Positions 1-12,270 of a DNA stretch of 12,270 nt are shown here, in pieces. Made by a program: the position numbers and the translations under genes. Source of the DNA: a bacterium (GTDB lineage Bacteria; Dependentiae; Babeliae; Babeliales; RVW-14); NCBI GenBank assembly GCA_010027825.1, contig RGUK01000034.1, positions 1 to 12,270 on the forward strand. Direction: 5' to 3'. Position 1 is the first letter of the stretch; every line of letters starts with the position of its first letter. The notes below the pieces were generated by a model. It was not told the DNA's origin. It saw only the letters and a list, made by a program, of their open reading frames with translations, and did no database searches.

Positions 1-12
1 AGGAGCACCCAT

Positions 13-360
13 ATGAAAAGATTTTTACTTGGGACGATTTGGGGAATTCTGTTGGTGGGGAATTCGGCAATTGCAGCGGATGTCTTGCTGGCATTTACCG
101 CCGAATGGTGCGGGCCGTGTCAGCAATTTAAAGCCGACTATATGGCCGATAAAAATCTGGTGGCCGGATACGAGACCGAAATCATTAATGTAGACAAGGC
201 CAAGGAATTAGCCCGGGATTTCGATGTCAAAAGTTATCCGACTTTTATTGTTATCAAAGTAGAAGACGACGGCACCTGGCGGAAAGACAATATCGTCAAG
301 CGCAAGTCAGGCTACGACAGCCCCAAGAAGTTTAAAAAATGGCTCGAGGAAAAGTCCTGA
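13..360 (+). CDS. Exported thioredoxin-like protein
   Basis: A 115-residue protein with a thioredoxin fold. Residues 1-22 form a signal peptide (MKR, hydrophobic core, Ala-Ile-Ala-Ala cleavage region), so it should work outside the cytoplasm. The redox motif is Trp-Cys-Gly-Pro-Cys, with Cys33 and Cys36, and the cis-proline loop is Ser-Tyr-Pro76-Thr. After removal of the signal it is about 93 residues, a minimal thioredoxin. Family knowledge: CGPC proteins reduce or exchange disulfides; the partner here is unknown. The start follows AGGAG at 1-5 by 7 nt. It is the only plus-strand gene in the left half and converges on the minus-strand genes at the terminator just after its stop. It may act on the cysteine-rich secreted proteins of the same element, but that is inference. 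Confidence 0.9.
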   Translation: MKRFLLGTIWGILLVGNSAIAADVLLAFTAEWCGPCQQFKADYMADKNLVAGYETEIINVDKAKELARDFDVKSYPTFIVIKVEDDGTWRKDNIVKRKSGYDSPKKFKKWLEEKS

Positions 361-365
361 TAGCT

Positions 366-409
366 AAAAAAAATCGGGGGGAGTAAACCCATGCTCCCCC
401 CGACTTTTT
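366..409. terminator. Bidirectional intrinsic terminator
   Basis: A perfect 10-bp stem (TCGGGGGGAG at 374-383 with CTCCCCCCGA at 394-403, 10-nt loop) is flanked by A8 on the left and CTTTTT on the right, so it can stop transcription from both sides. It separates the convergent genes; the TAA stop of the minus-strand gene lies at the edge of the T-tract. Confidence 0.9.
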
Positions 410-713
410 ACGGATTTTCAGAATCCGGCTCAGCCCGCGAACGGTTTTCCGCCTGAAGCAGTGCCTCCTGCACAGCCAGCGGATCCGCCTGCACTACCCA
501 TTGGTCGCCGATAAGAACTCGGTCGAAATGGGCGTTCTCAGGATCGGATCCTTCTTCGACTTCCTGCACGACCGACACCGGTGCCGGCTCCGGCTGCGGC
601 GGAAATAACCGCACGCCAACGTACAGGCCCGCCGCTATCACCAACGGAACCAGCGACAGAAAAAACCGCGCCATGCCAGCGTCGTAGCCATCGACGGTGT
701 AACTGCGATTCAT
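408..713 (-). CDS. Small single-pass membrane protein, unknown
   Basis: Not recognised. 101 residues from the ATG at 713, chosen because AGGAG (721-725) lies 7 nt upstream; the longer reading frame to 758 has no such site. Residues 15-33 form one hydrophobic segment (FFLSLVPLVIAAGLYVGV). A proline-rich linker (PPQPEPAP) and an acidic, probably soluble tail of about 60 residues follow. By the positive-inside rule the short N-terminus is cytoplasmic, but there are few charges to decide. It lies downstream of another small membrane protein (773-1282) with a 59-nt gap and is probably cotranscribed with it. Confidence 0.75.
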   Translation of the reverse strand: MNRSYTVDGYDAGMARFFLSLVPLVIAAGLYVGVRLFPPQPEPAPVSVVQEVEEGSDPENAHFDRVLIGDQWVVQADPLAVQEALLQAENRSRAEPDSENP

Positions 714-772
714 GCTGAATCTCCTGTACAAGGAAAGAAACACCCAGAACACCACCAACGGCCCGAGAACTC

Positions 773-1282
773 TTAATAGAGTTCCGGGACCGTTAGAATC
801 TCCACAATAGCCGGCAAATACTTCTGCCGGTCGGCGTTGTGAGCCAGTTCCAGTGCCTCGTCAAGTTCGTCCAACCGCGGCATGCCGTTGGCAACAATCT
901 TGTCGAAAGACCTGGCCATCAACTCCTTCAGCCGCGGGGCCACAATGTCTTCAACTACAACACGGTGCGACGGCGTGTTGTACTGCAGACTCACTTCGCG
1001 AGCACCTTCCATGAACCAGTCGGCAATCTCCTGCGTCGAGATGTCCTCGAACTCCTCGCGCCACTTCGTCCGCGGCGTGATCGCGAGAAACTCGTCGACC
1101 AGGGCGTCGAGCTTTTCCACCTCGCTCGTCGAAAGCGTCCGCGTTTCGGGCACGCTGTCCTCGACAACGTTGCCGGTGTAGATGTCATAGACAACCATCG
1201 CCGCCACCAACGCACCGAGCAGGAACAGGGACCGCTTGACCGTCGTCCAACCGCAGTCCAGAACGTAAAGAACCGTGTTCAT
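773..1282 (-). CDS. Membrane-anchored helical protein, unknown
   Basis: Not recognised. 169 residues; the start is fixed by AGGAGG (1291-1296) 8 nt upstream. Residues 17-37 form one membrane segment (RSLFLLGALVAAMVVYDIYTG). The remainder is hydrophilic, charged and apparently all-helical, ending in a Leu/Glu/Asp-rich region (LDELDEALELAHNADRQ). It is probably an inner-membrane protein with a large soluble domain. It is the first gene after the repeated promoter at 1351-1383, and its leader holds a hairpin (1310-1341). Confidence 0.8.
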   Translation of the reverse strand: MNTVLYVLDCGWTTVKRSLFLLGALVAAMVVYDIYTGNVVEDSVPETRTLSTSEVEKLDALVDEFLAITPRTKWREEFEDISTQEIADWFMEGAREVSLQYNTPSHRVVVEDIVAPRLKELMARSFDKIVANGMPRLDELDEALELAHNADRQKYLPAIVEILTVPELY

Positions 1283-1309
1283 CGTGCATACCTCCTAGAC
1301 ACCCAAAAC

Positions 1310-1341
1310 AGCCTCGCGAATTCACATTCGCACCAAAGGCT
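1310..1341 (-). promoter_or_regulatory. Leader hairpin after first shared promoter
   Basis: GCGAAT (1316-1321) and ATTCGC (1326-1331) form a 6-bp stem with a 4-nt loop, extended by AGCCT (1310-1314) and AGGCT (1337-1341) around a 5-nt bulge. It would lie near the 5' end of the transcript from the 1351-1383 promoter, ahead of the AGGAGG of the 773-1282 gene. Similar structures follow the other three copies of the promoter. Confidence 0.5.
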
Positions 1342-1350
1342 AAGCGGGTG

Positions 1351-1383
1351 TACTTAATATGCCGTTAAATAAACAGTTATTTA
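1351..1383 (-). promoter_or_regulatory. Shared bipartite promoter motif, copy 1
   Basis: Read on the minus strand: CTAAATA, 15 nt, then GCATATTAAGTAC. TAAATA is at 1378-1383 and GCATATT at 1356-1362. CATATT resembles a -10 box; TAAATA then sits 16 nt upstream at the -35 position but does not look like TTGACA. The start codon at 1282 is about 74 nt further on. The spacer also makes a palindrome with the -35-like half (TAAATAA / TTATTTA), which is not shared by the other copies. Confidence 0.7.
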
Positions 1384-1399
1384 GATACCGCTGATAACT

Positions 1400-1447
1400 A
1401 AAAAAAGCAGGCACGTTGGAGTGCCGCAGCACTCCAGCGGCGCTGCT
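1400..1447 (-). terminator. Intrinsic terminator, minus strand
   Basis: On the minus strand AGCAG (1443-1447) pairs with CTGCT (1406-1410) at the base, TGGAGTGC pairs with GCACTCCA near the tip with a 4-nt loop, and a T-run to 1400 follows. It lies just after the stop of the 1456-1773 gene and before the next promoter, so it closes that transcription unit. The internal loop makes it less regular than the other terminators. Confidence 0.65.
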
Positions 1448-1455
1448 CTTTGCGG

Positions 1456-1773
1456 TCAGCGGAAATACCGCTGAGCCAACTCGGCCGTGATGACCGCCAC
1501 CGCCATGATGAGCAACGGAATGCCCACCAGCAGCGACGTCAACCCACCGACGAGGCCAAGGATGGGCAGGATGATGCCCAGCCAGGCGTTCAGGTAGGCC
1601 ATCGACATCGGCAACGAAACCGCCAGCACGAACGTGACAGCGAGGGCAATCCCCAGCAGATACAGCGTCGCCTGGCCGAACTGGCCACAGGCTTCGCAAT
1701 ATCCGGGCGTGGCCGCCAGGGTGTTAAGGGCCCGCACGCACGCCTTGTGGAGTTGCACAAAGAACAGTTTCAT
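1456..1773 (-). CDS. Small multi-pass membrane protein, unknown
   Basis: Not recognised. 105 residues. The N-terminal 35 residues are hydrophilic and carry three cysteines, two of them in Cys-Glu-Ala-Cys (residues 26-29). Two or three hydrophobic stretches follow (about 37-57, 60-80 and 80-97), rich in Leu, Ile, Val and Gly. GGAG (1781-1784) lies 7 nt upstream of the start. It is a one-gene unit: copy 2 of the shared promoter lies about 70 nt upstream and a terminator lies just after its stop. Its ribosome site directly abuts the U-tract of a leader hairpin (1785-1807). Confidence 0.75.
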   Translation of the reverse strand: MKLFFVQLHKACVRALNTLAATPGYCEACGQFGQATLYLLGIALAVTFVLAVSLPMSMAYLNAWLGIILPILGLVGGLTSLLVGIPLLIMAVAVITAELAQRYFR

Positions 1774-1784
1774 GGAAACGCTCC

Positions 1785-1807
1785 AAAAAGGTTATATGCC
1801 GATAACC
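1785..1807 (-). promoter_or_regulatory. Leader hairpin with U-tract touching ribosome site
   Basis: Minus strand: GGTTAT (1802-1807), 6-nt loop, ATAACC (1790-1795), then TTTTT (1785-1789) running straight into GGAG (1781-1784). The stem is only 6 bp and AT-rich, so as a terminator it would be weak. It could instead gate ribosome access. The same arrangement recurs at 4596-4627 and 9909-9939. Confidence 0.45.
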
Positions 1808-1837
1808 ACGCGGACAGACGGAATACGTATCCCTCTG

Positions 1838-1870
1838 TACTTAATATGCCCGGCTTTATGTTGGTATTTA
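1838..1870 (-). promoter_or_regulatory. Shared bipartite promoter motif, copy 2
   Basis: Minus strand: CTAAATA, 15 nt, GCATATTAAGTAC. TAAATA is at 1865-1870 and GCATATT at 1843-1849. It is identical to copies 1 and 3 in both conserved blocks and in spacing, while the 15-nt spacer differs. It lies about 70 nt upstream of the gene starting at 1773. Confidence 0.7.
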
Positions 1871-1885
1871 GTCTCCAATAGTTAA

Positions 1886-1917
1886 AAAAAAGCGGGCACA
1901 CGTGCCGCCCGCTTTTT
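1886..1917. terminator. Bidirectional-looking intrinsic terminator
   Basis: GCGGGC (1892-1897) pairs with GCCCGC (1907-1912) across a 9-nt loop, flanked by A-runs on the left and TTTTT on the right, so the stem extends through A-T pairs. On the minus strand it ends the unit containing the 2030-2350 gene, immediately before the copy 2 promoter. Confidence 0.85.
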
Positions 1918-2029
1918 CGGAGATTACGCTCCGACGGTGGGCATATTGCCCGTATGGCGCCGCTGAAAGCCTCCCGCTTCAGACAACGGTGGGTTTAGAA
2001 ACGGGGACCACACCCCAAAACAACAAGGC

Positions 2030-2350
2030 TCAGCGAACGTACCGCATGCGACCGCACGGCATCTGCTGCCAGATGTCGGCCACCGTTTCGACGGTTTCGC
2101 TGATGCGGGCAACCCTGCGAAGAAACATCTCGCCGAGGGCGAGTGTTGCAAACACAAGGCCGAAGCCCATCATCGCGAGCGTGAACCGGTGCGTAATGCC
2201 CGCCATGCCGAACGGATCGAACGCTCCGTAGAGCAATCCGACAGCGGCGAAACCAGCACACACCACGCCGGCAGCCAGTGCCGCGAACACGAAGACCTGG
2301 AACAGCACGTACACCGTGATGGACAGGATCTTGTTGGTGTAGAAGAACAC
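2030..2350 (-). CDS. Small two-pass membrane protein, unknown
   Basis: Not recognised. 106 residues from a GTG at 2350, chosen because AAAGGAGG (2356-2363) ends 5 nt upstream; the open frame to 2446 has no such site and its extra N-terminus does not look membrane-like. Two hydrophobic segments, about residues 8-37 (ILSITVYVLFQVFVF onward) and 50-68 (FTLAMMGFGLVFATLALGE), are followed by a charged C-terminus of about 35 residues with VARISETVETVADIWQQ. It is the first gene downstream of the long structured gap; if that gap is transcribed on this strand, the gene may share its transcript. Confidence 0.7.
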   Translation of the reverse strand: MFFYTNKILSITVYVLFQVFVFAALAAGVVCAGFAAVGLLYGAFDPFGMAGITHRFTLAMMGFGLVFATLALGEMFLRRVARISETVETVADIWQQMPCGRMRYVR

Positions 2351-2546
2351 GCGAACCTCCTTTACATAAAGACAGGAACCGAACACACGAGCCACGATTG
2401 CTTGCACAGGCAACGTCCGCAGGAAGGAGCATTCAAACGGGGGCAAACCCGCTCAAAGTCCTCCAACGTCCGACAGGGTGTAGTCCCTTTAGCAACACAT
2501 TCACTCTACGTCTGGTATGCCTACCAAACGCAGGAGCACCTAGTTC

Positions 2547-2574
2547 GTTAACACAACTGGCCGGTCGTGTTAAC
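2547..2574. repeat. 28-bp near-perfect palindrome with GTTAAC ends
   Basis: GTTAACAC (2547-2554) and GTGTTAAC (2567-2574) are perfect inverted arms, and the centre (AC, then GGCC, then GT) continues the symmetry with two mismatched or wobble positions. It could be an RNA hairpin at one end of the structured region or a dyad binding site for a dimeric protein. Confidence 0.6.
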
Positions 2575-2857
2575 GCATTCGGTTTACGCTCTGGAACATG
2601 ACCGGAGTGATTACCGGCACCGAACCCTCCTCTAGCGTCATTTGTGTTGAGCTAGCGGTCCGGGGCGCTCAGAGATGTATTTTGCGCGGCTTCACACGCC
2701 ACCACGGAGGCTTGCGACCTCACATCTCCTCCTTCCGCACTCGACCTCACCTGCCCGAACTTTTCACAAGCGGGGTGTATCTCCGCTTTGCCTTTGGGCC
2801 AAGGATCGCCCAACGTTCGGCCACTGAGGACGCTGCCTGTGCAGGCAACTTGTATTG

Positions 2858-2893
2858 GCAGGTATTTGTACGCGCGTTAACCTGCAACGCGCG
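2858..2893 (-). other. Predicted H-type pseudoknot A
   Basis: Plus-strand order: GCAGGT (2858-2863), CGCGCGTT (2871-2878), ACCTGC (2880-2885), AACGCGCG (2886-2893). The first pairs with the third and the second with the fourth, giving crossing helices of 6 and 8 bp. Read on the minus strand the loops are 0, 1 and 7 nt, close to classical H-type geometry if one pair opens. Confidence 0.45.
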
Positions 2894-3144
2894 GGCATTC
2901 ACGGCACACACAGCCCAACGTGGGGCGGCCGTCGGTATTGCCATACCGTTTTTGTTGGTCACGCTAGTTTACGTCCAGCGTGAAGACGAGCGGAGACGTG
3001 CCACCGCCACGGTAGAGGCCGCGCTTCTCTACGTCACGGCTAGACGGCCCCGTGACCGCCGGCTAGGGAGCCGGTCCATGTCTGCGTTACATTAGAGGCC
3101 CAGACATTCGCCCGCTCCGTTTAACGCCCAGCTTGGCGGAAAAA

Positions 3145-3188
3145 GCGTCGCATTGCCATATTCCCACGTTACGCGACGCGATACGTGG
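3145..3188 (-). other. Predicted H-type pseudoknot B
   Basis: Plus-strand order: GCGTCGC (3145-3151), CCACGT (3164-3169), GCGACGC (3173-3179), ACGTGG (3183-3188). These are crossing perfect helices of 7 and 6 bp. On the minus strand the loops are 3, 3 and 12 nt, which suits an H-type fold (short loop over the deep groove, long loop over the shallow groove). The plus-strand reading would need a 3-nt loop across a 7-bp shallow groove, which is strained. Confidence 0.5.
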
Positions 3189-4036
3189 AGCACACGGGTA
3201 CTTTTAACGCCACGATCCCGATGGGGCGAAAACACACATGCGAACCCATAGCGGTGTTCGCTCTCGGCATGTGTGTGCCGCAGCATGCCGTAACGCATTA
3301 ACGCCCTTGGCCTTTGTATCGGCCGGCGTCTGAGGCTGCGTGGCTAACCCAAGCTGGTGGGCCCAACGTTCTGCCAGATGACGTTGACTCTCGCTGTTAA
3401 CCTACAACAAGTAAAGGACACAGAGCACGGCATACCACCGTGTTGATTACCGGGTAGTCTTGCTACCCGTGGCCAGCACTTTTGCCTTCGACGCATCCCG
3501 GCTGGCCGGGTGCGTAACTGAAGCTCTCGGTTACAGTTCCGTCCAGCGTTGCTCCGCTGGATGAGGCCGCTTCTTTCGTAGCGTCACGTTCACGCCGCCC
3601 CCTAACGCGGCTGTGTTATAGGGATAGCCTTGGGATATACCCAAGGACTTATACATGCTGGGCCAAGAAACAACCGTGAGGTGTTTCCGCTCCTTCAAAT
3701 TGAAGAAGCCCGTTGGCGTGCAGCTTTGACCTCGGCCATGTACGTGGCCGCTATGGTGAGAACAGTTTTTACTGTTCACGGTAATGTCCCATAGTCCGGA
3801 TTCCACGGGGTCCGCTCTTTTTTTTACGTGTCGGCTCCACACGTGAAACATTGGTTGGGTATCCGGCACCGCCACGGGGAGGCTGTTTCGTGGTGCCATG
3901 TATGCCGCGTTGTCAGCGCGGGCTACGGTTGCGGCTTGTTAGGCCCTGCGGTGCTTCCCCGCAGTATTACGACAGGACTTGTCCTGTATTCAGCCCATGT
4001 TGAGTAACACACCCATGGGCAGGTGCGGGGTGCTGG

Positions 4037-4327
4037 TCAGGCACCCAGGGGGTCGGCCGCCGACTCGAGCTTCGCCACCAACCGACGGGCAGCCCGCAAG
4101 GCTTCGGTGTACGTGTTGTACACCTTGTCCTCGTAGGAGTTGCCCATCAGGTAGGGTGCGTGCTCGCGGCAGACGAAATCCGACACCACGTCATAGGACC
4201 CCGCCTCGACGTCCTTGCGGACGGCGACGACGATGGCCCCAGCCGGGGTGGAGTTTCGCCACCGCCAGTCATTCTTGCGAATGACCGGAGCGACCTTGAC
4301 CTCACCGACGACCTTGAACTTGAACAT
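4037..4327 (-). CDS. Small protein, unknown
   Basis: Not recognised. 96 residues. Two ATGs are possible: the one at 4333 is only 1 nt from AGGAG, whereas the one at 4327 has 7-nt spacing and is preferred. The N-terminal half looks like beta strands (FKFKVVGEVKVAPVI, AGAIVVAVRKDV) and the C-terminal third is a basic helix (YTEALRAARRLVAKLE). There are no membrane segments, so it is probably cytoplasmic. It is driven by copy 3 of the shared promoter and is followed directly by the structured gap; a 6-bp stem (4028-4033 with 4041-4046) spans its stop codon. Confidence 0.75.
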   Translation of the reverse strand: MFKFKVVGEVKVAPVIRKNDWRWRNSTPAGAIVVAVRKDVEAGSYDVVSDFVCREHAPYLMGNSYEDKVYNTYTEALRAARRLVAKLESAADPLGA

Positions 4328-4359
4328 TCGCATGCTCCTTTCTAAGGGGGGTGGTGAAG

Positions 4360-4379
4360 CCCGGATGGATATATCCGGG
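4360..4379 (-). promoter_or_regulatory. Hairpin at predicted transcript start
   Basis: CCCGGAT (4360-4366) pairs with ATCCGGG (4373-4379) across a 6-nt loop. It lies immediately downstream of the -10-like box of promoter copy 3, so the transcript of the 4037-4327 gene would begin with or very near this stem. It may stabilise the mRNA 5' end. Confidence 0.5.
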
Positions 4380-4381
4380 TG

Positions 4382-4414
4382 TACTTAATATGCCCGCTTT
4401 TTTGTTGTTATTTA
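4382..4414 (-). promoter_or_regulatory. Shared bipartite promoter motif, copy 3
   Basis: Minus strand: CTAAATA, 15 nt including an A6 run, GCATATTAAGTAC. TAAATA is at 4409-4414 and GCATATT at 4387-4393. Both blocks and the spacing match copies 1 and 2. It is about 60 nt upstream of the start at 4327 and just after the stop of the preceding gene (4426). Confidence 0.7.
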
Positions 4415-4425
4415 GCAGGCACATT

Positions 4426-4584
4426 TCAACTCACGTCCCACCCGTTCAGGCGGACGTAGACGTTTTCCAGACGCTTGGCGACCATGCGGTTGATCCGGTG
4501 GTTGTTCCGCTTGAGCCGTTTCTTGCCCTTAGCGGCGTTCCGGGTCTTTCCGCAGTACCGCCACGCCCGCTGCCAATCAGTCAT
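4426..4584 (-). CDS. Small very basic protein, unknown
   Basis: Not recognised. 52 residues from the ATG at 4584, chosen because GGAG (4590-4593) lies 5 nt upstream. A longer open frame runs on to 4941, but only as a shadow of the next gene. It is strongly basic, with a KKRLKRNNHR run and many Arg and Lys, no acidic patch and no hydrophobic segment, so nucleic-acid binding is plausible but unproven. Its ribosome site sits directly behind a terminator-like hairpin (4596-4627), leaving no room for a promoter between them; expression should need read-through or relief of termination. Confidence 0.65.
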   Translation of the reverse strand: MTDWQRAWRYCGKTRNAAKGKKRLKRNNHRINRMVAKRLENVYVRLNGWDVS

Positions 4585-4595
4585 GTGAACTCCAG

Positions 4596-4627
4596 AAAAA
4601 AGAACGCAACCACTTAACGCTGGTTGC
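4596..4627 (-). terminator. Terminator or attenuator abutting a ribosome site
   Basis: Minus strand: GCAACCA (4621-4627), 8-nt loop, TGGTTGC (4606-4612), then GTTC and TTTTTT (4596-4601), then CT and the GGAG of the next gene. The stem is a perfect 7 bp. It stands between the 4691-5047 gene and the 4426-4584 gene, so it could be a simple terminator, an attenuator or a processing site. Confidence 0.65.
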
Positions 4628-4690
4628 ATACGTGTGCACACATTGAGTCGCGTGCTCGTGTGCTCCAAGCCCGTTGTAGGTTCGCTACGC

Positions 4691-5047
4691 CTACTGGGAG
4701 TCGTTGAGGCACGGCTCGACAATCCCACCGTGTTTATTAACCACGGCTTCAACCACCTCGACCGGCACGTGTCCGTAGACAGTTTCGGTCGGGAAGTCGG
4801 GACTCTCGGCGTACTCCATAAACTCCTCGACCCGCTCAGTGGGATAACCGATTTCCACGGTAACCCACGGCCCCACGCCATTCCGCGGCGAGCAGTAGTG
4901 CGTAGAACTCGCCTGCACGGAGAGTTCCAGCCCGTCTGCACACGTAATGGGTCGAACCTGGCGCCAGCCCTGGGCGAGCAAATGCTCTGGCCAGCCTGGC
5001 TTCAGGTTCGCGGGGTCGAGCAGGTAGGCGTTTAAGTCAAACGCTAT
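4691..5047 (-). CDS. Conserved-looking phage protein; possible ATA start
   Basis: Not recognised by function. The first ordinary start in the frame is a TTG at 4981 (96 residues), but coding-like sequence continues upstream (AFDLNAYLLDPANLKPGWPE). There is no ATG, GTG or TTG between the TAG stop upstream and that TTG. GGGGAGAG lies 6 nt before an ATA at 5047, which would give 118 residues and puts the start about 70 nt from the copy 4 promoter, as at the other copies. I favour the 5047 start. It is a soluble protein with mixed alpha/beta composition; the C-terminal part has PVEVVEAVVNKHGG. A pseudoknot occupies its leader. Confidence 0.65.
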   Translation of the reverse strand: MAFDLNAYLLDPANLKPGWPEHLLAQGWRQVRPITCADGLELSVQASSTHYCSPRNGVGPWVTVEIGYPTERVEEFMEYAESPDFPTETVYGHVPVEVVEAVVNKHGGIVEPCLNDSQ

Positions 5048-5066
5048 GACTTTCTCTCCCCAGCCC

Positions 5067-5106
5067 GCAGTCGAAAAGAGTGCCCCGCACGGTGACTGCT
5101 AACCGT
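5067..5106 (-). promoter_or_regulatory. Leader H-type pseudoknot
   Basis: Minus strand: ACGGT (5102-5106), TA, GCAGTC (5094-5099), ACCGT (5089-5093), 16 nt, GACTGC (5067-5072). The two helices (5 and 6 bp, the first extendable by a G-U and a G-C pair) cross with loops of 2, 0 and 16 nt, which is textbook H-type geometry. It lies between the copy 4 promoter and the GGGGAGAG of the 4691-5047 gene, as expected for a translational control element. Confidence 0.55.
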
Positions 5107-5118
5107 ACAGGACAATGG

Positions 5119-5145
5119 ATATGCCGCGTTTTTGTTAGTTATTTA
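5119..5145 (-). promoter_or_regulatory. Shared bipartite promoter motif, copy 4 (diverged)
   Basis: Minus strand: TTAAATA, 15 nt, GCATAT. TAAATA is at 5140-5145 and GCATAT at 5119-5124. The spacing equals that of copies 1-3, but TAAGTAC is replaced by CCATTG. This copy indicates that TAAATA and GCATAT are the core. It begins immediately after the stop of the 5147-5404 gene. Confidence 0.65.
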
Positions 5146-5146
5146 A

Positions 5147-5404
5147 CTACGCGGAAACCCGTGCTTTGTGAAAGTTCGCCGGCGGTTCAAACGACCGCTG
5201 ATAAAACAACTCTTCGGCGCGGCGGAGAGACATCTCGCCGGACAGCGGCGGTTCGCCGTCCCGGAAGTGTCCGTGAAGCGAACAACCAGTGCAGTTGTTT
5301 TCGCGGAGCAGCCGCAGAAGGCTCAGGGCCGTCACAGGGTCGTACGCCACGCCGACCATGTCATCGTTGAACGCACCGCCGATACCGTAGATCACCACCT
5401 GCAT
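5147..5404 (-). CDS. Small protein with CxxC, unknown
   Basis: Not recognised. 85 residues from the ATG at 5404, which has AGGAG 8 nt upstream; the frame open to 5452 lacks a site. The N-terminus (MQVVIYGIGGAFNDD) looks like a strand and glycine loop. The middle has a leucine-rich helix (ALSLLRLLREN) followed by Cys-Thr-Gly-Cys. With only one Cys pair plus nearby His residues (SLHGHF), metal binding is possible but not shown. There is no membrane segment. It is the second gene of a pair with 5427-5633, 22 nt apart. Confidence 0.75.
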   Translation of the reverse strand: MQVVIYGIGGAFNDDMVGVAYDPVTALSLLRLLRENNCTGCSLHGHFRDGEPPLSGEMSLRRAEELFYQRSFEPPANFHKARVSA

Positions 5405-5426
5405 AAGAAGTTCTCCTATGGGAACG

Positions 5427-5633
5427 TTACCGAACCTGTGCCCGCAAAACACGATTTACACGGGCTAATCCAATCAGCACGGCAGACGTGTTTTCCACGC
5501 CTTGTTTTGCCTGTTTCAAGTCGTAAACAAGCCGTTCAACCTCAGACGGCATTAGAGTTACCGCCGTATCTTTTGGCTCGGCCATGAGGATGTCGATCCA
5601 GTATTGCAGGCGCTCTTTAGTGGTAGCAGGCAT
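5427..5633 (-). CDS. Small helical protein, unknown
   Basis: Not recognised. 68 residues; AGGAG lies 5 nt upstream of the ATG at 5633. It appears entirely helical, with charged heptad-like stretches (ERLQYWIDILM, SEVERLVYDLKQAKQGVEN, VLIGLARVNRVLRAQVR) suggesting a small coiled coil or helical bundle. It is the first gene downstream of the second structured gap and has no copy of the shared promoter in front, so it may be transcribed with that region. Confidence 0.75.
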   Translation of the reverse strand: MPATTKERLQYWIDILMAEPKDTAVTLMPSEVERLVYDLKQAKQGVENTSAVLIGLARVNRVLRAQVR

Positions 5634-5639
5634 AACGCT

Positions 5640-6165
5640 CCTGGAAAGGAAACGCCCCGTTGCAATTTAACTCTTCACACACGGGACCACATGCGTGAGC
5701 GAGGGATTGGTTTCAATCTCGGTACAGGCGCCCACTCCCGTAAGCGCTGCCCAGAGACCCTGCTTGTCGCACCACGTCAACCGTCAAGCAAAACTTGAGA
5801 GTTGGATGTGCGCCGGCTCAGGGCTGCCGGGAGTTGAAGATCTCGCCGCTGGGATGTGGTGATATCGGGCGGTTAACGCTACCTCCCACGCACATTAAGG
5901 CTCGTAACTTCCCCCAGCATTTCGCAGCGCTGTACACACGTTGCCGAGATAAAGATTCCAGCGGGCCATTGACGTTCCGGCCCTATTACCCGCACCAGAC
6001 AGTAGTGTGACTACACGCTTCCGATTTGGAACCGCCCACGCCAGCGAACTGGAGGTGACGGCTACTGGAAAAATGAACCGCTGATTGTCCCCTTGCCGTG
6101 TGACGGCTGGTTTCGACCAGACAACTAGGTGCCGTTTACAAGGCGGCTTTACCAGCAGCGGTAAG
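5640..6165 (-). ncRNA. Second candidate structured RNA region
   Basis: About 525 nt with no credible gene, immediately downstream of the tmRNA on the same strand. Visible pairings include ACCGCTG (6078-6084) with CAGCGGT (6155-6161), a long-range helix enclosing two adjacent hairpins, GCCGT/ACGGC and CTGGT/ACCAG (loop CGAA on the minus strand), within about 6094-6120. Other stems are GGGCC/GGCCC near 5963-5983, CCGGC/GCCGG near 5813-5830 and GATTG/CAATC near 5704-5720. It could be a separate RNA or a tmRNA trailer. No family was recognised; it is less dense in long stems than the 2370-4036 region. Confidence 0.35.
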
Positions 6166-6509
6166 TGGAGCCGAGGGGAGTCGAACCCCTGTGTCGTGAT
6201 AATTCCGATAAAAACGTCTACATGCGTAGCGGGTTATCTCGCTAACCCAGCAAGCCAGCCAGAGTTATCGGCGTCAGGTGGTTACCACCATCTTACCCTT
6301 TCTGTCTGGGTCAGAGCAGCCGATTATCGGCGTCAACTTGATTCGGTGATGAGGCTCAAGCCGCCTCACCCGGTCACTGCTCAGGCAGCGAGAGCGGGAG
6401 CGCTGTTGAAGGCGCCAATTAACATGTGGGCGATTTTTAACGTGGCCATTCGTCCAACCACGGCATGCAATCTAAATCTTCCTTATCCGATCGATACCAG
6501 TACGGCCCC
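6166..6509 (-). ncRNA. ssrA: Transfer-messenger RNA (tmRNA)
   Basis: Rescues stalled ribosomes by acting first as tRNA-Ala and then as mRNA for a degradation tag. The 5' end is GGGGCCG (6503-6509), followed by a stretch like the usual tmRNA D-region. The 3' end is a T-arm (GGGG, TTCGACT, CCCC) and CGGCTCC (6167-6173), which pairs with the 5' end and keeps the G3-U70 pair used by alanyl-tRNA synthetase. GCATGCCGTGG and CCACGTTAAAAATC match the conserved lead-in to the tag. The tag frame runs GCC at 6431 to TGA at 6381-6383: AHMLIGAFNSAPALAA, ending in the typical ALAA. A pseudoknot follows (GGTGAGGC stem; loop CTTGA pairs with TCAAG). CCA is not encoded. The tag is longer than the 10 residues that E. 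coli tmRNA encodes. Confidence 0.93.
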
Positions 6510-6511
6510 AG

Positions 6512-6585
6512 TAGTGCGGGCGGGAGTCGAACCCGCAACATGCAGATTTTGAGTCTGCCTTCTCTGCCAATTGGAATACCGCACC
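6512..6585 (-). tRNA. tRNA-Leu(CAA), short variable loop
   Basis: Acceptor GGTGCGG (6579-6585) pairs with CCGCACT (6513-6519), with G1-U72. Anticodon arm GCAGA, CTCAAAA, TCTGC gives anticodon CAA. T-arm is GCGGG, TTCGACT, CCCGC. Discriminator A, CCA not encoded. It is 74 nt, with a variable region of only 5 nt, which is odd for a leucine tRNA. It ends 2 nt before the tmRNA 5' end. Confidence 0.85.
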
Positions 6586-6595
6586 AACATTGTAA

Positions 6596-6669
<74 letters not shown>

Positions 6670-6676
6670 AATTTAA

Positions 6677-6705
6677 TTGTTACGCAAACAATAATTAACT
6701 ATACT
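6677..6705 (+). promoter_or_regulatory. Sigma-70-like promoter for HNH gene
   Basis: TTGTTA (6677-6682), 17-nt spacer, TATACT (6700-6705). It is only 25 nt from the HNH start codon and points away from the tRNA-Asp gene. It differs from the TAAATA/GCATAT motif of the minus-strand units, which fits an independently acquired gene. Confidence 0.6.
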
Positions 6706-6729
6706 ATACACAACAGGTTCGAATCAATT

Positions 6730-7359
6730 ATGACAAAACTCGCACAAAAAATACTCGAACTGCGTGAACGCGGTTTGTCGTATAAACAAATTGTGAGAAA
6801 ACTTCATTGTGCTCGCAGCACTGTTTGCTATTACTGCGGAACAAATCAAAAACAAAAATTTAACAACAGGCAGCAGAAGCGGCGCAACAAAACTTCGACA
6901 ATTGCACGAAAGTTACAAAAATTTCAAACACGAAAACAACACGTTAAAGACTTCGTGCGTGTTATTGATAAGGCAATAAAAGCCAGACTACGCGAAAGAA
7001 TTTTGCGTTTTAGCTTTGATTCACGTACAGGGAGGTACGCATCAATGAAATTCACCGTGGAGCAGTTGTTAGAAAAAATCGGCTCTGCACCAACATGTTA
7101 TTTGACTGGGCGTGCAATAGATCTAACAAAGACACGCACGTACCATCTCGATCACATTGTTCCTGCAAGCAAAGGCGGCGACAATTCTTTAAAAAATTGT
7201 GGCCTTGCGTGCCGAGAAGCAAATCAAGCAAAAAACGATATGTCAGTTGAAGAATTTGTGCAACTATGCCGAGATGTTATCGCACATCACGAAACAATTA
7301 GCGCTACGGAGAATCGAACTCCGGTCTCGACCTTGAAAGGGTCGCGTCCTAACCACTAG
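6730..7359 (+). CDS. HNH homing-type endonuclease with N-terminal HTH
   Basis: 209 residues from the ATG at 6730; the frame is open from 6571, but only through antisense of tRNA-Asp. Residues 9-36 look like a helix-turn-helix (LRERGLSYKQIVRKL, RSTVCYY). Residues 40-80 are very basic. The HNH domain is residues 120-170: CYLTGRAIDL, then His139, Asp141-His142 as the catalytic region, Asn156 and Asn165 in CREANQAKND. Family knowledge: free-standing HNH enzymes of phages cut DNA site-specifically and spread by repair of the cut. It is the only gene on this strand among the tRNAs, visibly AT-richer than its neighbours, and its last 20 codons are antisense to tRNA-Glu. The ribosome site is weak. 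Confidence 0.88.
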   Translation: MTKLAQKILELRERGLSYKQIVRKLHCARSTVCYYCGTNQKQKFNNRQQKRRNKTSTIARKLQKFQTRKQHVKDFVRVIDKAIKARLRERILRFSFDSRTGRYASMKFTVEQLLEKIGSAPTCYLTGRAIDLTKTRTYHLDHIVPASKGGDNSLKNCGLACREANQAKNDMSVEEFVQLCRDVIAHHETISATENRTPVSTLKGSRPNH

Positions 7360-7370
7360 ACGATAGCGCC
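7299..7370 (-). tRNA. tRNA-Glu(TTC)
   Basis: Acceptor GGCGCTA (7364-7370) with TAGCGCT (7300-7306; G1-U72), D-arm with GTCTAGTGGTTAGGAC typical of Glu, anticodon arm CGACC, CTTTCAA, GGTCG (anticodon TTC), T-arm CGGAG, TTCGATT, CTCCG, discriminator A. CCA not encoded. The 3' coding end of the HNH gene overlaps it on the other strand through 7359. Confidence 0.95.
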
Positions 7371-7418
7371 ATTCGCAGCCATTGTGCCATATTTTTACGA
7401 CATAACAACTGCGGCACA

Positions 7419-7973
7419 TTACTTATCGGCGGTCGTGCCGATCCAGTGCGTCAGGTCGTCGAGCATCCTGTCCACCCGCTGACGCACCTGAAACAACTGT
7501 CTCTCCGTGTCCATAATGTGATTCTTGAGCAAGACAAGATCCCGGACGGCACGGTCGGGCATGGGGAGCTTTTCGCTCTCCATTTCCGCGTGCTTCCGGT
7601 CCAGTTTCTTTTGCTCTTCGCGCCACACTTCAATAGCGTCGTCGGCGTACACAACGCCGTCAATCTCGAACTGCTCGGCTTCGGGAATTCTGTGGTGCAC
7701 GCCAGCGATGAACGAATCATCGCATTGGTGCACGTGAACCCGCACAACCCGGTCGCCGCTTGCCTCGGCCTGCTCAATGGCGGCAGTGAACTCTTCTGAG
7801 CTGGACGGCATTGCACCCGGCACGACGCGCGGAACCGGCACAAGACAACTCAGACCTTTCATGGTTTTCCACAGGCGAACGAATTCGTTGAACTCGCTTT
7901 CTGTGAGAACCGACATCCAGTCCCGGTAGCCGTACTCTTCGTCAATCAGCAGGATGACCTTGTTTTCTTCCAT
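7419..7973 (-). CDS. Cytoplasmic protein, unknown
   Basis: Not recognised. 184 residues; AAGG lies 6 nt before the ATG at 7973. Acidic N-terminus (VILLIDEEYGYRDW), a middle section with HVHQC and GVHHRIP, then a charged helix (EVWREEQKKLDRKHAEMESEKL) and a C-terminal helix (MDTERQLFQVRQRVDRMLDDL) that looks like a coiled coil. There is no signal or membrane segment. It begins 18 nt after the stop of the 7992-8396 gene and is the last of a five-gene run lying between tRNA-Ile and tRNA-Glu. Confidence 0.8.
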   Translation of the reverse strand: MEENKVILLIDEEYGYRDWMSVLTESEFNEFVRLWKTMKGLSCLVPVPRVVPGAMPSSSEEFTAAIEQAEASGDRVVRVHVHQCDDSFIAGVHHRIPEAEQFEIDGVVYADDAIEVWREEQKKLDRKHAEMESEKLPMPDRAVRDLVLLKNHIMDTERQLFQVRQRVDRMLDDLTHWIGTTADK

Positions 7974-7991
7974 GCTACACCTTTTTAAAAG

Positions 7992-8396
7992 TTAGTTGAT
8001 GCCAGCGCCGCACATGAACTGCGAGAACCCGGGCAGCATCTTCTGCATCTGCGGGCTGGTCTTTGTATAGCCAGCAGGGTTGCGAAGATACGCCCGAATC
8101 CGCTCACACCACGCCTGTGCCTCTGTCGGGTACAGGTCGACGATCCACCGCCGACCGCGGCGGGTATACCAAAGGTTCACTTCCTTGGGTGCCGTGGCCC
8201 AGCACGCAGCCAGGCGTTCGGCGGTCCACTTCTTCCAACCCATGATTTCCCAGATCTCGTGAATTGGGAAACACCGTTCAATCGGCCGACCCTTGTCCTG
8301 ATCGGCGACCACCACGAAGATGCCGTGACGCTTGTAACCGTCCTTGCGAGCACCAGCCTTGCGGCAGATCGTCCGAAGCACCGTGCGGGAAGCCAT
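7992..8396 (-). CDS. Basic tryptophan-rich protein, unknown
   Basis: Not recognised. 134 residues; AAAGGAG lies 6 nt upstream of the ATG at 8396. Basic and aromatic (IWEIMGWKKWTAERLAACWAT, NLWYTRRGRRWIVDLY, AQAWCERIRAYL). The first 30 residues are Arg/Lys-rich and could touch nucleic acid; a helix-turn-helix-like stretch around WEIMGWKKWTAERL is possible but not secure. It is 14 nt downstream of the S4-like gene and in one operon with it. Confidence 0.8.
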   Translation of the reverse strand: MASRTVLRTICRKAGARKDGYKRHGIFVVVADQDKGRPIERCFPIHEIWEIMGWKKWTAERLAACWATAPKEVNLWYTRRGRRWIVDLYPTEAQAWCERIRAYLRNPAGYTKTSPQMQKMLPGFSQFMCGAGIN

Positions 8397-8410
8397 GCGA
8401 ACTCCTTTAA

Positions 8411-8587
8411 TTAGTTGTTAACGATATAGACCTTGCCGTCATATTCAACTTCAGAAAACGGCGGCACTTTGACCGCCGGATTTTCTTCGACTTTGTTGTC
8501 TATTTTCACTTCGCCCTGCACGATCAGTCGCCTGGCAACCGAGGCACACACCCCAGTTTTTTCAACTAGCAAATTGACCAGGTACAT
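8411..8587 (-). CDS. Small S4-like RNA-binding domain protein
   Basis: 58 residues that look like a lone S4 domain: LVNLLVEKTGVCASVARRLI, then VQGEVKIDNKVEENPAVKV and a C-terminal VEYDGKVYIV. The pattern (helix, S-x-A-R-R-L-I, QG-x-V-x-I-[N/D]) is that of S4 modules in ribosomal protein S4, TyrRS and YlmH/RluB-type proteins, which bind structured RNA. The start is the ATG at 8587, with AAGGAG 8 nt upstream; a GTG at 8593 is only 2 nt from that site. Two nt separate it from the stop of the upstream gene. In this RNA-rich element a tRNA, rRNA or tmRNA target is possible. Confidence 0.65.
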   Translation of the reverse strand: MYLVNLLVEKTGVCASVARRLIVQGEVKIDNKVEENPAVKVPPFSEVEYDGKVYIVNN

Positions 8588-8589
8588 AG

Positions 8590-8841
8590 TCACTGCTCCT
8601 TAAACGTGGGACACTCTTTCGGAATCACAAACGCCGTAAACTCTTTTCCCCGCCCCGACTGCGGCTGCTGCGTGACAGCACGAAGAAACGTCGAGTTGGC
8701 AAAACCGATCGGAATGCCGCCTGTATAGACAGCATTGAGATCGTCGGTGTATTGCCCGCGGGTAGTGCCGCACAAACACGACTTTTCAACTTCTTTGAGA
8801 TTAAATACATCGCCGCAGTCGGGGCAAAGGAGCAACTTCAC
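8590..8841 (-). CDS. Small zinc-ribbon-like protein
   Basis: 83 residues beginning with a GTG at 8841. Cys-Pro-Asp-Cys at residues 6-9 and Cys-Leu-Cys-Gly at about 22-25 give three or four Cys ligands for a small zinc ribbon at the N-terminus; the rest is unassigned (GGIPIGFANSTFLRAVTQQ). Its start overlaps the stop of the upstream gene by 4 nt (GTGA), which indicates translational coupling. The ribosome site (AAAGGCGG) is imperfect, consistent with coupling. Confidence 0.8.
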   Translation of the reverse strand: MKLLLCPDCGDVFNLKEVEKSCLCGTTRGQYTDDLNAVYTGGIPIGFANSTFLRAVTQQPQSGRGKEFTAFVIPKECPTFKEQ

Positions 8842-9017
8842 GAGACAACCGCCTTTCTTTGAAGTGCCGCTTCCACTTCCTTCTGTGGATAAAAGCGGGT
8901 GTACGTGCCCTTGATCACCGTGACGCCGGTCGCAAAGATCGCCGTAACCTTACCGCCATTGAAATCACCGCCGATGGCGATCACCTTCTTGGTCGAATTT
9001 TCGGTCTCGTTGGACAT
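8838..9017 (-). CDS. Small beta-rich protein, unknown
   Basis: Not recognised. 59 residues from the ATG at 9017, which has AAGGAGG close upstream; the frame open to 9089 runs into tRNA-Ile. A hydrophilic N-terminus (SNETENSTKK) precedes probable beta strands (KVIAIGGDFNGGKVTAIFATGVTVIKGTYTRF) and a short helix. It is the first gene of the five-gene run, 19 nt after tRNA-Ile, and overlaps the next gene by 4 nt. Confidence 0.75.
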   Translation of the reverse strand: MSNETENSTKKVIAIGGDFNGGKVTAIFATGVTVIKGTYTRFYPQKEVEAALQRKAVVS

Positions 9018-9035
9018 GGAATCCTCCTTGGAAGT

Positions 9036-9105
9036 AGCCCGCTGTGGAGTCGAACCACACGTAGGGACCTTATAAGAGTCCGTTGCCAACCGGTTTCCGC
9101 GGGCC
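9036..9105 (-). tRNA. tRNA-Ile(TAT)
   Basis: Acceptor GGCCCGC (9099-9105) with GCGGGCT (9037-9043; G1-U72). Anticodon arm GGACT, CTTATAA, GGTCC gives anticodon TAT, reading ATA. T-arm is TGTGG, TTCGACT, CCACA; discriminator A; CCA not encoded. The D-arm is short, giving 70 nt in total. A genomic TAT anticodon means ATA is read without needing the lysidine-modified CAT tRNA. Confidence 0.9.
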
Positions 9106-9106
9106 G

Positions 9107-9153
9107 AAAAGGGGCGGGCACCACAGCCTTGGGCAAACCGCAGTGCCCGCCCC
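9107..9153 (-). terminator. Strong hairpin, probable terminator
   Basis: GGGGCGGGCAC (9111-9121) and GTGCCCGCCCC (9143-9153) form a perfect 11-bp GC-rich stem with a 21-nt loop. On the minus strand it is followed by TTTTC and 2 nt later by tRNA-Ile. The T-run is short, so it may act partly as a processing boundary between the 9188-9523 mRNA and tRNA-Ile. Confidence 0.6.
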
Positions 9154-9187
9154 GAAACCGGTATCTTAACGCCTTACGGCAAACCGA

Positions 9188-9523
9188 CTAGCGGTAGCGC
9201 TTGCACGCGTACCACTTACCATTTCGACCACGGGCAACGCCCTGATCGACAACTCGCATGCCGCTGCGGCTGTAGCAGCAACGATTGAGTGCCTCTTCGG
9301 GTGTTGATCCCATGCCGACGCCTTCGTAACCGTGGTTACCGCCCACATGACCCATCGAGCACCGGTTAGCTTGAATTTCAGCGGCACCCTGGGCGGTACT
9401 ATTGTTCGGCACGTACGTTGTGTAGGCCCGCGTTTGTGCTAACCGACACTGCCCATTTAAGCAGTTCTGCCCAAACGCCTGACTGCCACAAACCAAAAAC
9501 AAAGCCACAAGAATCGTTCGCAT
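9188..9523 (-). CDS. Secreted Cys-rich protein of planctomycete type
   Basis: 111 residues. Residues 1-18 form a signal peptide (MRTILVALFLVCGSQAFGQ). The mature N-terminus has Cys-Leu-Asn-Gly-Gln-Cys-Arg, and the C-terminal half has MGHVGGNHGYEGVGMG, then ALNRCCY and GVARGRNGKWYACKRYR. From memory this His/Gly block, EGVG, CC and final GVARG-WYA-RYR arrangement matches an uncharacterised family common in Planctomycetes; I could not check this. The cysteines suggest disulfides outside the cytoplasm. AAGGAGG lies 8 nt upstream of the start. It is one of three exported proteins in the window. Confidence 0.85.
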   Translation of the reverse strand: MRTILVALFLVCGSQAFGQNCLNGQCRLAQTRAYTTYVPNNSTAQGAAEIQANRCSMGHVGGNHGYEGVGMGSTPEEALNRCCYSRSGMRVVDQGVARGRNGKWYACKRYR

Positions 9524-9553
9524 TGGAACATCCTCCTTGATGTGAAATCGAAC

Positions 9554-9895
9554 TCAAACGTAAGCGAACGCAGCAGTCTTGCCACGCCACCGCTTAATCG
9601 CCCCCTTGGACTTCGGGCTGTTGCCATGAGCCACCACAGCCTTCAGCAGCTTCCGCGTGCGGGCTTTAGAAAACCCGTACGTAAGGCCGAACATCTTTGT
9701 CGGCAAATAGGGATTGCGGATGCAACCGCCTTCCCAGTCTCGCTCCTTTTTTGCGAACGCCGTGTCACAGTGCCGTTGGGCCAGTTTTGCTCTGACCACG
9801 TACACCGTGTGCACGCTCACTCGCCGGCCAACAATCTTGCTGGCTTCGTTCGCAATGTCGGTCGCCGTGTTCACGCACTCGCAATTGATAGCCAT
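9554..9895 (-). CDS. Basic possible DNA-binding protein, unknown
   Basis: 113 residues from the ATG at 9895, which has AAGGAG 5 nt upstream. Residues 6-35 (VNTATDIANEASKIVGRRVSVHTVYVVRAKLA) look like a small helix-turn-helix or winged element. The C-terminal 40 residues are very basic (FSKARTRKLLKAVVAHGNSPKSKGAIKRWRGK). Nucleic-acid binding is therefore likely, but no family was recognised. Its ribosome site directly follows a strong terminator (9909-9939), with no space for a promoter, so expression depends on read-through or processing. Confidence 0.75.
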   Translation of the reverse strand: MAINCECVNTATDIANEASKIVGRRVSVHTVYVVRAKLAQRHCDTAFAKKERDWEGGCIRNPYLPTKMFGLTYGFSKARTRKLLKAVVAHGNSPKSKGAIKRWRGKTAAFAYV

Positions 9896-9908
9896 GATGG
9901 CTCCTTGC

Positions 9909-9939
9909 AAAAAGAAAAAGGCCCGCACACGCGGGCCTT
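9909..9939 (-). terminator. Strong terminator abutting a ribosome site
   Basis: Minus strand: AAGGCCCGC (9931-9939), 4-nt loop, GCGGGCC (9920-9926), then TTTTTCTTTTT (9909-9919), GC and AAGGAG. It is a textbook intrinsic terminator, placed between tRNA-Val and the 9554-9895 gene and touching that gene's ribosome site. It is the clearest of three such cases. Confidence 0.85.
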
Positions 9940-9948
9940 ATCAACCAA

Positions 9949-10021
9949 TAGCCGCAGAGGGATTCGAACCCCCAACATCCTGCGTGTAAAGCAGGCGCTC
10001 TAACCGTTGAGCTATGCGGCT
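9949..10021 (-). tRNA. tRNA-Val(TAC)
   Basis: Acceptor AGCCGCA (10015-10021) with TGCGGCT (9950-9956), D-arm TAGCTCAACGGTTAGAGC, anticodon arm CCTGC, TTTACAC, GCAGG (anticodon TAC), T-arm GGGGG, TTCGAAT, CCCTC with a G-U pair, discriminator A. CCA not encoded. Confidence 0.95.
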
Positions 10022-10027
10022 ACGTTG

Positions 10028-10360
10028 TCAGTCTGGAATCACATAGTCGGGCGGCAACGGCACCCAACTCTTTGCACGTTCTTCGTCGTAGGGCATCCAC
10101 CACGGCGCGTCATCAGCGTCACACACGCCCCAGTCGTTATTAATAAACTTGTTGTGGTTGATCGCGTCGATGACGTGTTGCGGCATGTCTTCTTCTACCA
10201 GTTTGCCGTCAGGACCCTCATAGCAGCACCTGGTTTCCACGGTCGGATCGAACCTGCCGATGTGGAGACCGATGTTGTGGCCGAAGTAATAGACCATTTG
10301 GCCTTTCTCCGGCAACTGAGCACGTGATCGAATCCAGCCGCGCTCTTCTGCTGTTTTCAC
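10028..10360 (-). CDS. DUF551-like small phage protein
   Basis: 110 residues from a GTG at 10360 preceded by GGAGGAGG. The pattern WIRSRAQLPEKGQMVYYFGHN near the N-terminus and a C-terminal AKSWVPLPPDYV resembles the short DUF551-type phage and prophage proteins (W-x-x-V...LP-x-x-G-x-x-V and W-x-P-LP-x-P). Function unknown. The GTG overlaps the stop of the upstream gene by 4 nt, so the two are translationally coupled. It lies just 6 nt from tRNA-Val, which follows it in the transcript. Confidence 0.7.
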   Translation of the reverse strand: MKTAEERGWIRSRAQLPEKGQMVYYFGHNIGLHIGRFDPTVETRCCYEGPDGKLVEEDMPQHVIDAINHNKFINNDWGVCDADDAPWWMPYDEERAKSWVPLPPDYVIPD

Positions 10361-10614: not shown

Positions 10615-10633
10615 GAAATTCCCTCCCGAGGAA

Positions 10634-10706: not shown

Positions 10707-10800
10707 GCCGTAACTTGTTGCCAGGAAAGAACTTACGTCGAGAGGGTTATTCCCGCCTGTCGTAAATTCAGTCCTGACAACACGTTAGGCTTTGTTTGCG

Positions 10801-11297: not shown

Positions 11298-11333
11298 CTC
11301 GCCCTCCTTGTGTGAGAAAAACCAACCAAACAG

Positions 11334-12268: not shown

Positions 12269-12270
12269 CT

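Follow-up and report, generated by a model that had tools for sequence, protein, structure and literature searches.

Among described RNAs, the closest counterparts of the element reported here are GOLLD and ROOL. In the portions of PMC12286853 drawn on here, both are RNA-only cages for which no function is described, and GOLLD combines a conserved 3' part with a less conserved 5' part. A further comparison is offered by the ribozymes named after hepatitis delta virus (HDV): the excerpts of PMC10879173 considered here place phage ribozymes of the HDV-like kind in non-coding regions, where their function is not known. Here we analyse a window of 12,270 nucleotides (nt; contig RGUK01000034.1 of GenBank assembly GCA_010027825.1, positions 1 to 12,270), which we infer to be phage DNA from its relatives in IMG/VR. 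Within it, the stretch 2397-4036 holds no credible gene and is made up of two distinct blocks, a run of hairpins (block A, 2857..4036) and a folded RNA that we term RNA440 (block B, 2397..2849). Comparison with a second phage contig, L004, indicates that RNA440 is almost certainly a real and conserved structured RNA. An earlier note had proposed a large structured RNA, or several, over 1.65 kb; the picture of a single uniform RNA has to be revised, because the blocks are distinct and L004 carries B without A. The proposal survives in block B, whose fold is conserved in L004, whereas no homologue was found for block A.

RNA440 is like GOLLD in being phage-borne, large and elaborately folded and in lying near tRNA genes, and the locus, with a conserved 3' part and a variable 5' part, recalls the arrangement given for GOLLD in those portions of the source. 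It differs from GOLLD in having no Rfam match and in possessing a conserved part of ~450 nt with a closing helix of its own, and the 3' part in L004 has no counterpart of block A. With ROOL it shares a phage location near tRNA genes, a complex fold and the lack of an evident protein partner; it differs in having no Rfam match and in being shorter than the 659 nt stated for ROOL in the excerpts of PMC12286853. GOLLD forms a closed cage of 14 copies and ROOL an octameric cage.

Searches with Rfam 15 returned no GOLLD, ROOL or HEARO at E ≤5 over the whole window or at E ≤10 over the stretch, in runs without a positive control for those models; at E ≤5 the stretch gave nothing, and at E ≤10 it gave only a sub-threshold match to RF02682. 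Full-text literature in PubMed Central on ornate and phage RNAs and on theta, HDV-like and Pistol ribozymes held no recognisable report of RNA440, a text search being blind to unnamed sequences. RNA440 probably belongs to an undescribed family, as the earlier note had thought possible. A divergent GOLLD or ROOL would account for an RNA that is large, ornate, phage-borne, near tRNA genes and closed on itself, but we consider it extremely improbable given the missing Rfam match and a length of ~450 nt as against 659 nt for ROOL and 833 nt for GOLLD (PMC12286853, same portions).

The RNA440 copies in the window and in L004

L004 is an IMG/VR phage contig of 76.6 kb. It was found by scanning IMG/VR for a two-part promoter-like motif, CTAAATA-N14-GGCATATTAAGTACA, which lies before the window operon (4380..4415, minus strand; recognised from its repeat count and from L004); the scan returned four loci. 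Window positions 2856-2399 match L004 1759-2217 at 78% identity over 473 nt (E about 1e-95). In the window the order is motif, a gene for a protein of 96 amino acids (aa), block A, RNA440, a 106-aa gene and a terminator recognised by eye. In L004 the motif lies directly before RNA440, which is followed by an 83-aa gene, a further non-coding stretch (standard score, z, of -2.0) and a terminator, also by eye. The immediate flanks of RNA440 differ between both phages.

The RNA is closed by a terminal helix of 19 pairs with one mismatch (2843-2824 with 2422-2403), which is identical in the two phages; there are four additional pairs, one of them compensatory. Fold tests used the two-row alignment of window and L004, and the consensus was fitted to both rows. 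The consensus fold reaches -166.5 kcal/mol, compared with -94.8 +/- 5.6 (z -12.7) and -96.8 +/- 7.2 (z -9.6) in two sets of 60 column shuffles. Its 133 pairs comprise 103 that are unchanged, 14 with a one-sided change, 16 with compensatory changes and none that is broken, while in folds of shuffled alignments the compensatory pairs number 6.9 +/- 2.2 (maximum 12) and the pairs with a one-sided change 17.6 +/- 3.3. A less circular test starts from the fold of the window sequence alone: 12 of its 14 double-changed pairs stay paired in L004, against 5.8 +/- 1.8 in 2000 draws (maximum 12). Starting from the L004 fold, 13 of 18 double-changed pairs are kept, against 8.1 +/- 2.0 (maximum 15), and one-sided changes are kept somewhat above chance (22/43; null 16.1 +/- 2.6).

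The strand, which the earlier note had left open together with the ends, is with near certainty the minus strand for RNA440, because 26 of the 133 pairs break when the RNA is read on the plus strand and the best plus-strand consensus is weaker (-121.1). The terminal helix sets the ends. RNA440 is also unlike a gene, since its 104 substitutions are spread evenly over codon positions (36, 32 and 36, even in each frame counted) and the alignment contains several single-base insertions or deletions.

Several observations weigh against this account of RNA440. One-sided changes relative to the window fold are kept at chance level (17/44; null 14.8 +/- 2.6), so not every helix of the window single-sequence fold is right. 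The plus-strand consensus, too, folds better than its shuffles (z -6.6), which a complementary sequence should do, and no more than two copies of RNA440 came to light. Run over 14 related or candidate records, a covariance model of its core hit only the L004 record and, in the window, only the known site. No homologue emerged from annotated phages searched with the window stretch, the two small proteins and the L004 RNA, or from plasmids searched with the L004 RNA. Two RNA patterns scanned in IMG/VR returned L004 alone, and protein-guided scans produced no additional record. Matches of 27 nt in 34 records (E 0.5; phages of Erwinia, Salmonella, Enterobacter and Hafnia) were taken as chance, and an 18-mer pattern in GTDB genomes gave six loci at which the likeness is limited to 18-20 nt.

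One arm of RNA440 (2546..2575, minus strand, seen in the fold of both copies) has little sequence identity between the phages and folds in both. Its apical loop is palindromic; the window copy reads GGCC/CCGG there and the L004 copy TGCATGCA. This could be a lead for self-association of RNA440, tentatively and at rather low probability, for the palindrome was spotted after the fact and in two sequences only.

Block A and a candidate HDV-like ribozyme

Block A spans ~1.18 kb (2857..4036); we place it on the minus strand from its context. Stems were counted as perfect Watson-Crick helices of at least 6 bp with loops of 3-25 nt and arms sharing no base, and compared with dinucleotide shuffles (200, and 300 in a second run). 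The earlier note had pointed to more than a dozen perfect stems laid end to end, and the count bears this out: 2370-4036 contains 27, including, exactly as given there, a 10-bp stem at 3232-3241/3267-3276. Two pairs of stems interleave and are not jointly possible in a nested fold. Block A holds 24 of the 27, against 5.8 +/- 2.0 in shuffles (maximum 10; 0/200 reach 24) and 5.9 +/- 2.2 in the second run (maximum 13; 0/300). Of the 23 gaps between adjacent stems in block A, 8 are shorter than 20 nt, and two further neighbours interleave. The stems are unevenly distributed, and block B (2399-2856) has three, which is within chance (1.7 +/- 1.2; 42 of 200 shuffles reach three).

Stem density alone is no proof of an RNA. 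Three coding controls from the window show no excess (6 stems against 4.5, 3 against 2.6 and 2 against 1.4), but one does occur in GC-rich coding sequence from a related phage (L107 1560-1910; 10 against 2.4), and in 13,416 segments of 300 nt from the collected sequences, which average 1.9 stems, the highest count in block A is 8, while other places reach 9. Hairpin density was dropped as a general RNA detector, as it picks up GC-rich coding stretches too. Folding energy by itself likewise decides nothing: the excess over dinucleotide shuffles that the earlier note had named as a check is there, with minimum free energy z-scores of -4.6 (24 shuffles) and -6.2 (20 shuffles) for block A and -5.4 (80 shuffles) for block B, but coding stretches of the window reach similar values (-5.3 at 7422-8396 and -5.8 at 4037-4333). 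In a fold of the entire block A, 15 of the 24 stems reach a mean pair probability of at least 0.7. That no credible protein gene is present, as the note also held, agrees with a Pfam search of eight chosen open reading frames (ORFs; seven from the window stretch and one from L004), which gave no credible match and two weak ones below the cut-off (E 0.058 and 0.066).

Two results count against a minus-strand RNA in block A: no homologue was found, and the block folds about equally on both strands (z -4.6 and -4.3). In a pairwise comparison of seven stretches (21 pairs), block B with its L004 counterpart was the only pair to score clearly higher than shuffles; the sequence following the tmRNA (5650-6164, without folding excess at z -0.8), compared with that before tRNA-Lys, scored 34, which equals the highest of 40 shuffles. 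The suggestion that further RNA440 copies lie within block A was dropped after this comparison and a scan with the core covariance model.

Block A contains a candidate HDV-like self-cleaving ribozyme (3845..3897, minus strand), with a predicted cut just 5' of G3897, suggested by sub-threshold Rfam matches and by a descriptor. RF02682, the HDV ribozyme of F. prausnitzii, scores 16.5 bits here (E 4.6 or 0.51 depending on the search; gathering threshold 44), and RF00094, the HDV ribozyme, scores 15.0 bits (E 4.7; gathering threshold 50), a match seen only when 181 nt were given. Reading from 3897 down to 3845, the site has P1 (GGCACC/GGTGCC), a 2-nt J1/2, P2 (GAAACA/TGTTTC), P3 (GCC/GGC), a 7-nt L3 (TCCCCGT), GG for P1.1 and CCAA before P2'. 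By the descriptor, the elements follow the nested double pseudoknot order P1, P2, P3, P3', P1', P1.1, P2', and a putative catalytic C stands before P2', where the Rfam HDV-model alignment also places it. P2 of the site is a pseudoknot and is unpaired in the printed structure lines of the Rfam models. A third match at lax Rfam settings, to mraW on the plus strand (11.6 of 50 bits), was taken as chance.

With constraints on L3 and on the catalytic letter, the descriptor matches once in the window and not at all in 1.43 Mb of other loci or in 1.84 Mb of shuffled window. Without the L3 or catalytic-letter constraint it matches once in the window and twice in the other loci, both times with A at the catalytic position; at two per 1.43 Mb, ~0.03 chance matches are expected in the window. 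These figures come from two descriptors written after the site had been seen and from other loci scanned on both strands with redundancy kept. A control of this kind, with the catalytic letter varied, appears in PMC10879173, which in its excerpts also cites minimal HDV-like forms.

Other features speak against the candidate. Both Rfam HDV scores, from matches over the same 58-76 nt, lie far below their gathering thresholds, and P1 has a near-zero probability in the nested fold of block A, a fold unable to represent the pseudoknot. P4 is missing, with 6 nt where the model has 33; minimal HDV-like forms can lack P4. The candidate has a P1 of 6 bp and a J1/2 of 2 nt. The former is permitted, since most HDV-like ribozymes have a P1 of 6 or 7 bp according to PMC4908430 (in the part consulted). 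The latter is short by the tests of one HDV-like ribozyme in the same part of that paper, where no spacer gave no activity, 1 nt little and 3 and 7 nt more. Taken together, the modelled site may be an active ribozyme, at slightly less than an even chance.

Compared with the HDV-like and theta ribozymes, 3845-3897 is alike in having P1, P2, P3, L3, P1.1 and the C before P2' in HDV order, and differs in lacking P4, in lying away from a tRNA 3' end and in scoring below the Rfam thresholds. Theta ribozymes associated with tRNAs are recognised by cleavage within 5 nt of a tRNA 3' end, and no tRNA was called within 2 kb of 3897.

Proposed mechanism and competing explanations

The explanation that we favour, a trans-acting ornate phage RNA cut from a longer transcript, has as a whole roughly even chances in our estimate. 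Judging by the layout, the minus strand of 2397-4036 would be transcribed from the promoter at ~4380-4415 in one RNA that also holds the 96-aa gene upstream and the small gene downstream. A terminator scan listed no minus-strand terminator within either block, so the window RNA440 would be part of a long transcript. The HDV-like site would cut before G3897, as predicted from its topology, and free the RNA from the upstream small-gene mRNA; in L004 no ribozyme cut would be needed, because RNA440 starts at the promoter there. RNA440 would then act in trans as a stable structured RNA, a role that we hold to be somewhat probable because the neighbouring genes differ between the phages while RNA440 is kept. 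It may work like GOLLD and ROOL, with a self-contained fold and loop-loop contacts with itself or with a partner. A more extended version would make the whole a composite RNA of 1.6 kb, released by the ribozyme, with a 5' run of about two dozen hairpins and a 3' ornate RNA that founds a new family and self-associates through a palindromic kissing loop (GGCC in the one phage and UGCAUGCA in the other); it would form a protein-free RNA particle parallel to GOLLD and ROOL, at a fast-changing locus where relatives carry non-homologous RNAs. All of this jointly is unlikely.

At odds with trans action, the next small gene begins ~40-50 nt past the end of RNA440 in either phage, and no terminator was seen in that gap. 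This also fits the main rival, a cis-acting 5' leader: RNA440 would govern how the small gene behind it is translated or how stable its message is, and block A would be an extended upstream region; the lack of a listed minus-strand terminator inside A or B suits this rival as well. The downstream genes, however, look unrelated by eye (in L004 a member of the 96-aa family, in the window the 106-aa gene), and RNA440 is closed on itself by its terminal helix ahead of the ribosome-binding site, so that a leader seems rather unlikely to us. Two copies with near-perfect terminal inverted repeats and different flanks could also be read as a mobile element resembling a miniature inverted-repeat transposable element (MITE), with the repeat serving as a transposase end and the inner fold incidental. 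We judge this very improbable: the internal compensatory changes and intact pairing indicate selection on the RNA, no target-site duplication was seen by eye, no second copy was found in the L004 record or (for the core) in the window, and both copies lie beside tRNA genes of related phages.

Two further alternatives concern block A. It might act as DNA, forming cruciforms or single-strand hairpins for replication, recombination or packaging, which would agree with stems that are perfect Watson-Crick (by the definition of the count) and with a folding excess similar on both strands. Its position, with a gene on one side, the conserved minus-strand RNA on the other and a promoter-like motif in front, and the candidate folded RNAs behind the same motif in two other phages, L045 and L057, make such a role quite unlikely. 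Block A might instead be decayed coding sequence or GC-rich junk, with stems arising by mutational chance. The missing homologue, the stem excess in L107 coding sequence, the equal stem density elsewhere and the similar folding scores of two coding stretches of the window are all in line with this, but 24 stems against 5.8 +/- 2.0, a number reached in none of 200 shuffles, are not. Phage genomes rarely retain 1.2 kb of junk, and we regard decay as decidedly improbable.

RNA440 is a further candidate of the general kind of GOLLD and ROOL, and its short length, defined ends and clear strand suit it to direct probing and cryo-electron microscopy. The ribozyme candidate suggests what those phage HDV-like ribozymes that are not near tRNAs could do, a question that the portions of PMC10879173 consulted leave open: they may release a structured RNA from the mRNA that precedes it. 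The promoter-like motif common to these phages is a handle for finding more members of the group.

The promoter-like motif, neighbouring genes and other RNAs

On its minus strand the window carries GGCATATTAAGTACA three times without a mismatch, in each case preceded by CTAAATA at a distance of 14 nt; 0.13 occurrences would be expected with at most three mismatches. Besides the site before the operon there are minus-strand sites at 1836-1871 and 1349-1384 and a variant near 5119-5145. Ten phage records chosen for holding the motif contain 28 instances of TAAATA-N14-GGCATAT, all on the same strand within a record and at least two in 7 of the 10; a reversed-pattern control gave no copies in the same records. 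We infer that the two-part motif is a promoter, possibly for a phage polymerase or sigma factor. A looser scan returned 42 loci, many of them probably by chance. By synteny or by translated similarity (tblastx) to the window, among the best 40 lines, the relatives are L026, L029/L052, L040, L045 and L058, in addition to the L004 record.

At 29 of the 32 motif sites examined (window and 16 loci), the next 450 nt contain an open frame of at least 60 codons. Such a frame is no proof of a gene, because the RNA440 site (76 codons) and L057 (106 codons) are among the 29. In our judgement two motif sites besides that of RNA440 precede folded stretches without a credible gene. That of L057, a candidate relative, has z -8.3 over 450 nt and -7.8 for a 317-nt unit, with only 2 perfect stems against 1.3; that of the related phage L045 has 6 stems against 1.9 and a modest z of -2.2. 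These candidate RNAs are like blocks A and B in their position behind the same motif and in having no credible gene, and unlike them in sequence, no similarity to A or B having been found. The 106-codon frame of L057 was not counted as a gene, as by eye it runs through a terminator-like hairpin into the next motif. The L057 stretch (G008 16350-17010, in a record of 204 kb) has two motif sites, and 131 nt behind the second of them recur at G008 17691-17822 with 83% identity. A separate stretch of 79 nt is 81% identical between window 5645-5721 (minus strand) and L045 11095-11173, just before a gene start in each; in L045 it forms the 3' end of a repetitive stretch rich in GGCAGG/CACGG (11082-11564, minus strand).

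The 96-aa gene (4037..4327, minus strand) encodes a homologue of the 83-aa protein of L004 (28% identity), whose gene also adjoins RNA440, on the other side. A family search gave nine proteins including both queries, and the 96-aa protein had no Pfam or PHROG match at E ≤0.1. The 106-aa gene, identified from its reading frame (2030..2350, minus strand), lies directly after RNA440 and by eye starts with GTG. After it, a terminator-like hairpin with a T run was seen by eye (1884..1916, minus strand); its loop of 9 nt is longer than the terminator scan allows.

Phage tRNA genes are close by: a tmRNA and six tRNA genes lie at 6165-11406, the tmRNA about 2.1 kb from 4036. The order Lys(ttt)-Leu(taa)-Val(tac) is common to the window and the L004 record, which are relatives on this ground. 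The part of the L004 record that was read, 38 kb, shows no tmRNA and no Pistol ribozyme above threshold. The window itself has a Pistol match at 11606-11674 on the minus strand (59.4 bits; gathering threshold 34.5), with a 196-aa ORF on one side and, on the other, folded sequence (11407-11605; z -4.1) that precedes tRNA-Lys. Its position before a folded stretch resembles that of the HDV-like candidate. In the relative L020, sequence in front of tRNA-Lys (1252-1466) shows neither a Pistol match nor a folding excess (z -0.3).

Several smaller features were seen in the same region. The tags encoded by the phage-borne tmRNAs are GAFNSAPALAA in the window (6165-6509, minus strand), GTFNSVPALAA in L045 (12862-13203) and ADQTLRGAPLALAA in L026 (9748-10106). 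An HNH endonuclease ORF on the opposite strand (6571-7359, plus), which probably encodes a homing endonuclease, lies between tRNA-Asp and tRNA-Glu, with its start overlapping tRNA-Asp. At ~9030-9100 (minus strand) there is a tRNA-like sequence with, by eye, an apparent TAT anticodon, called by neither ARAGORN nor Rfam; in L026 and L029 a tRNA-Ile(tat) adjoins tRNA-Val. A 60-aa ORF at 8411-8593 (minus strand) has, by eye, the look of an S4 RNA-binding domain.

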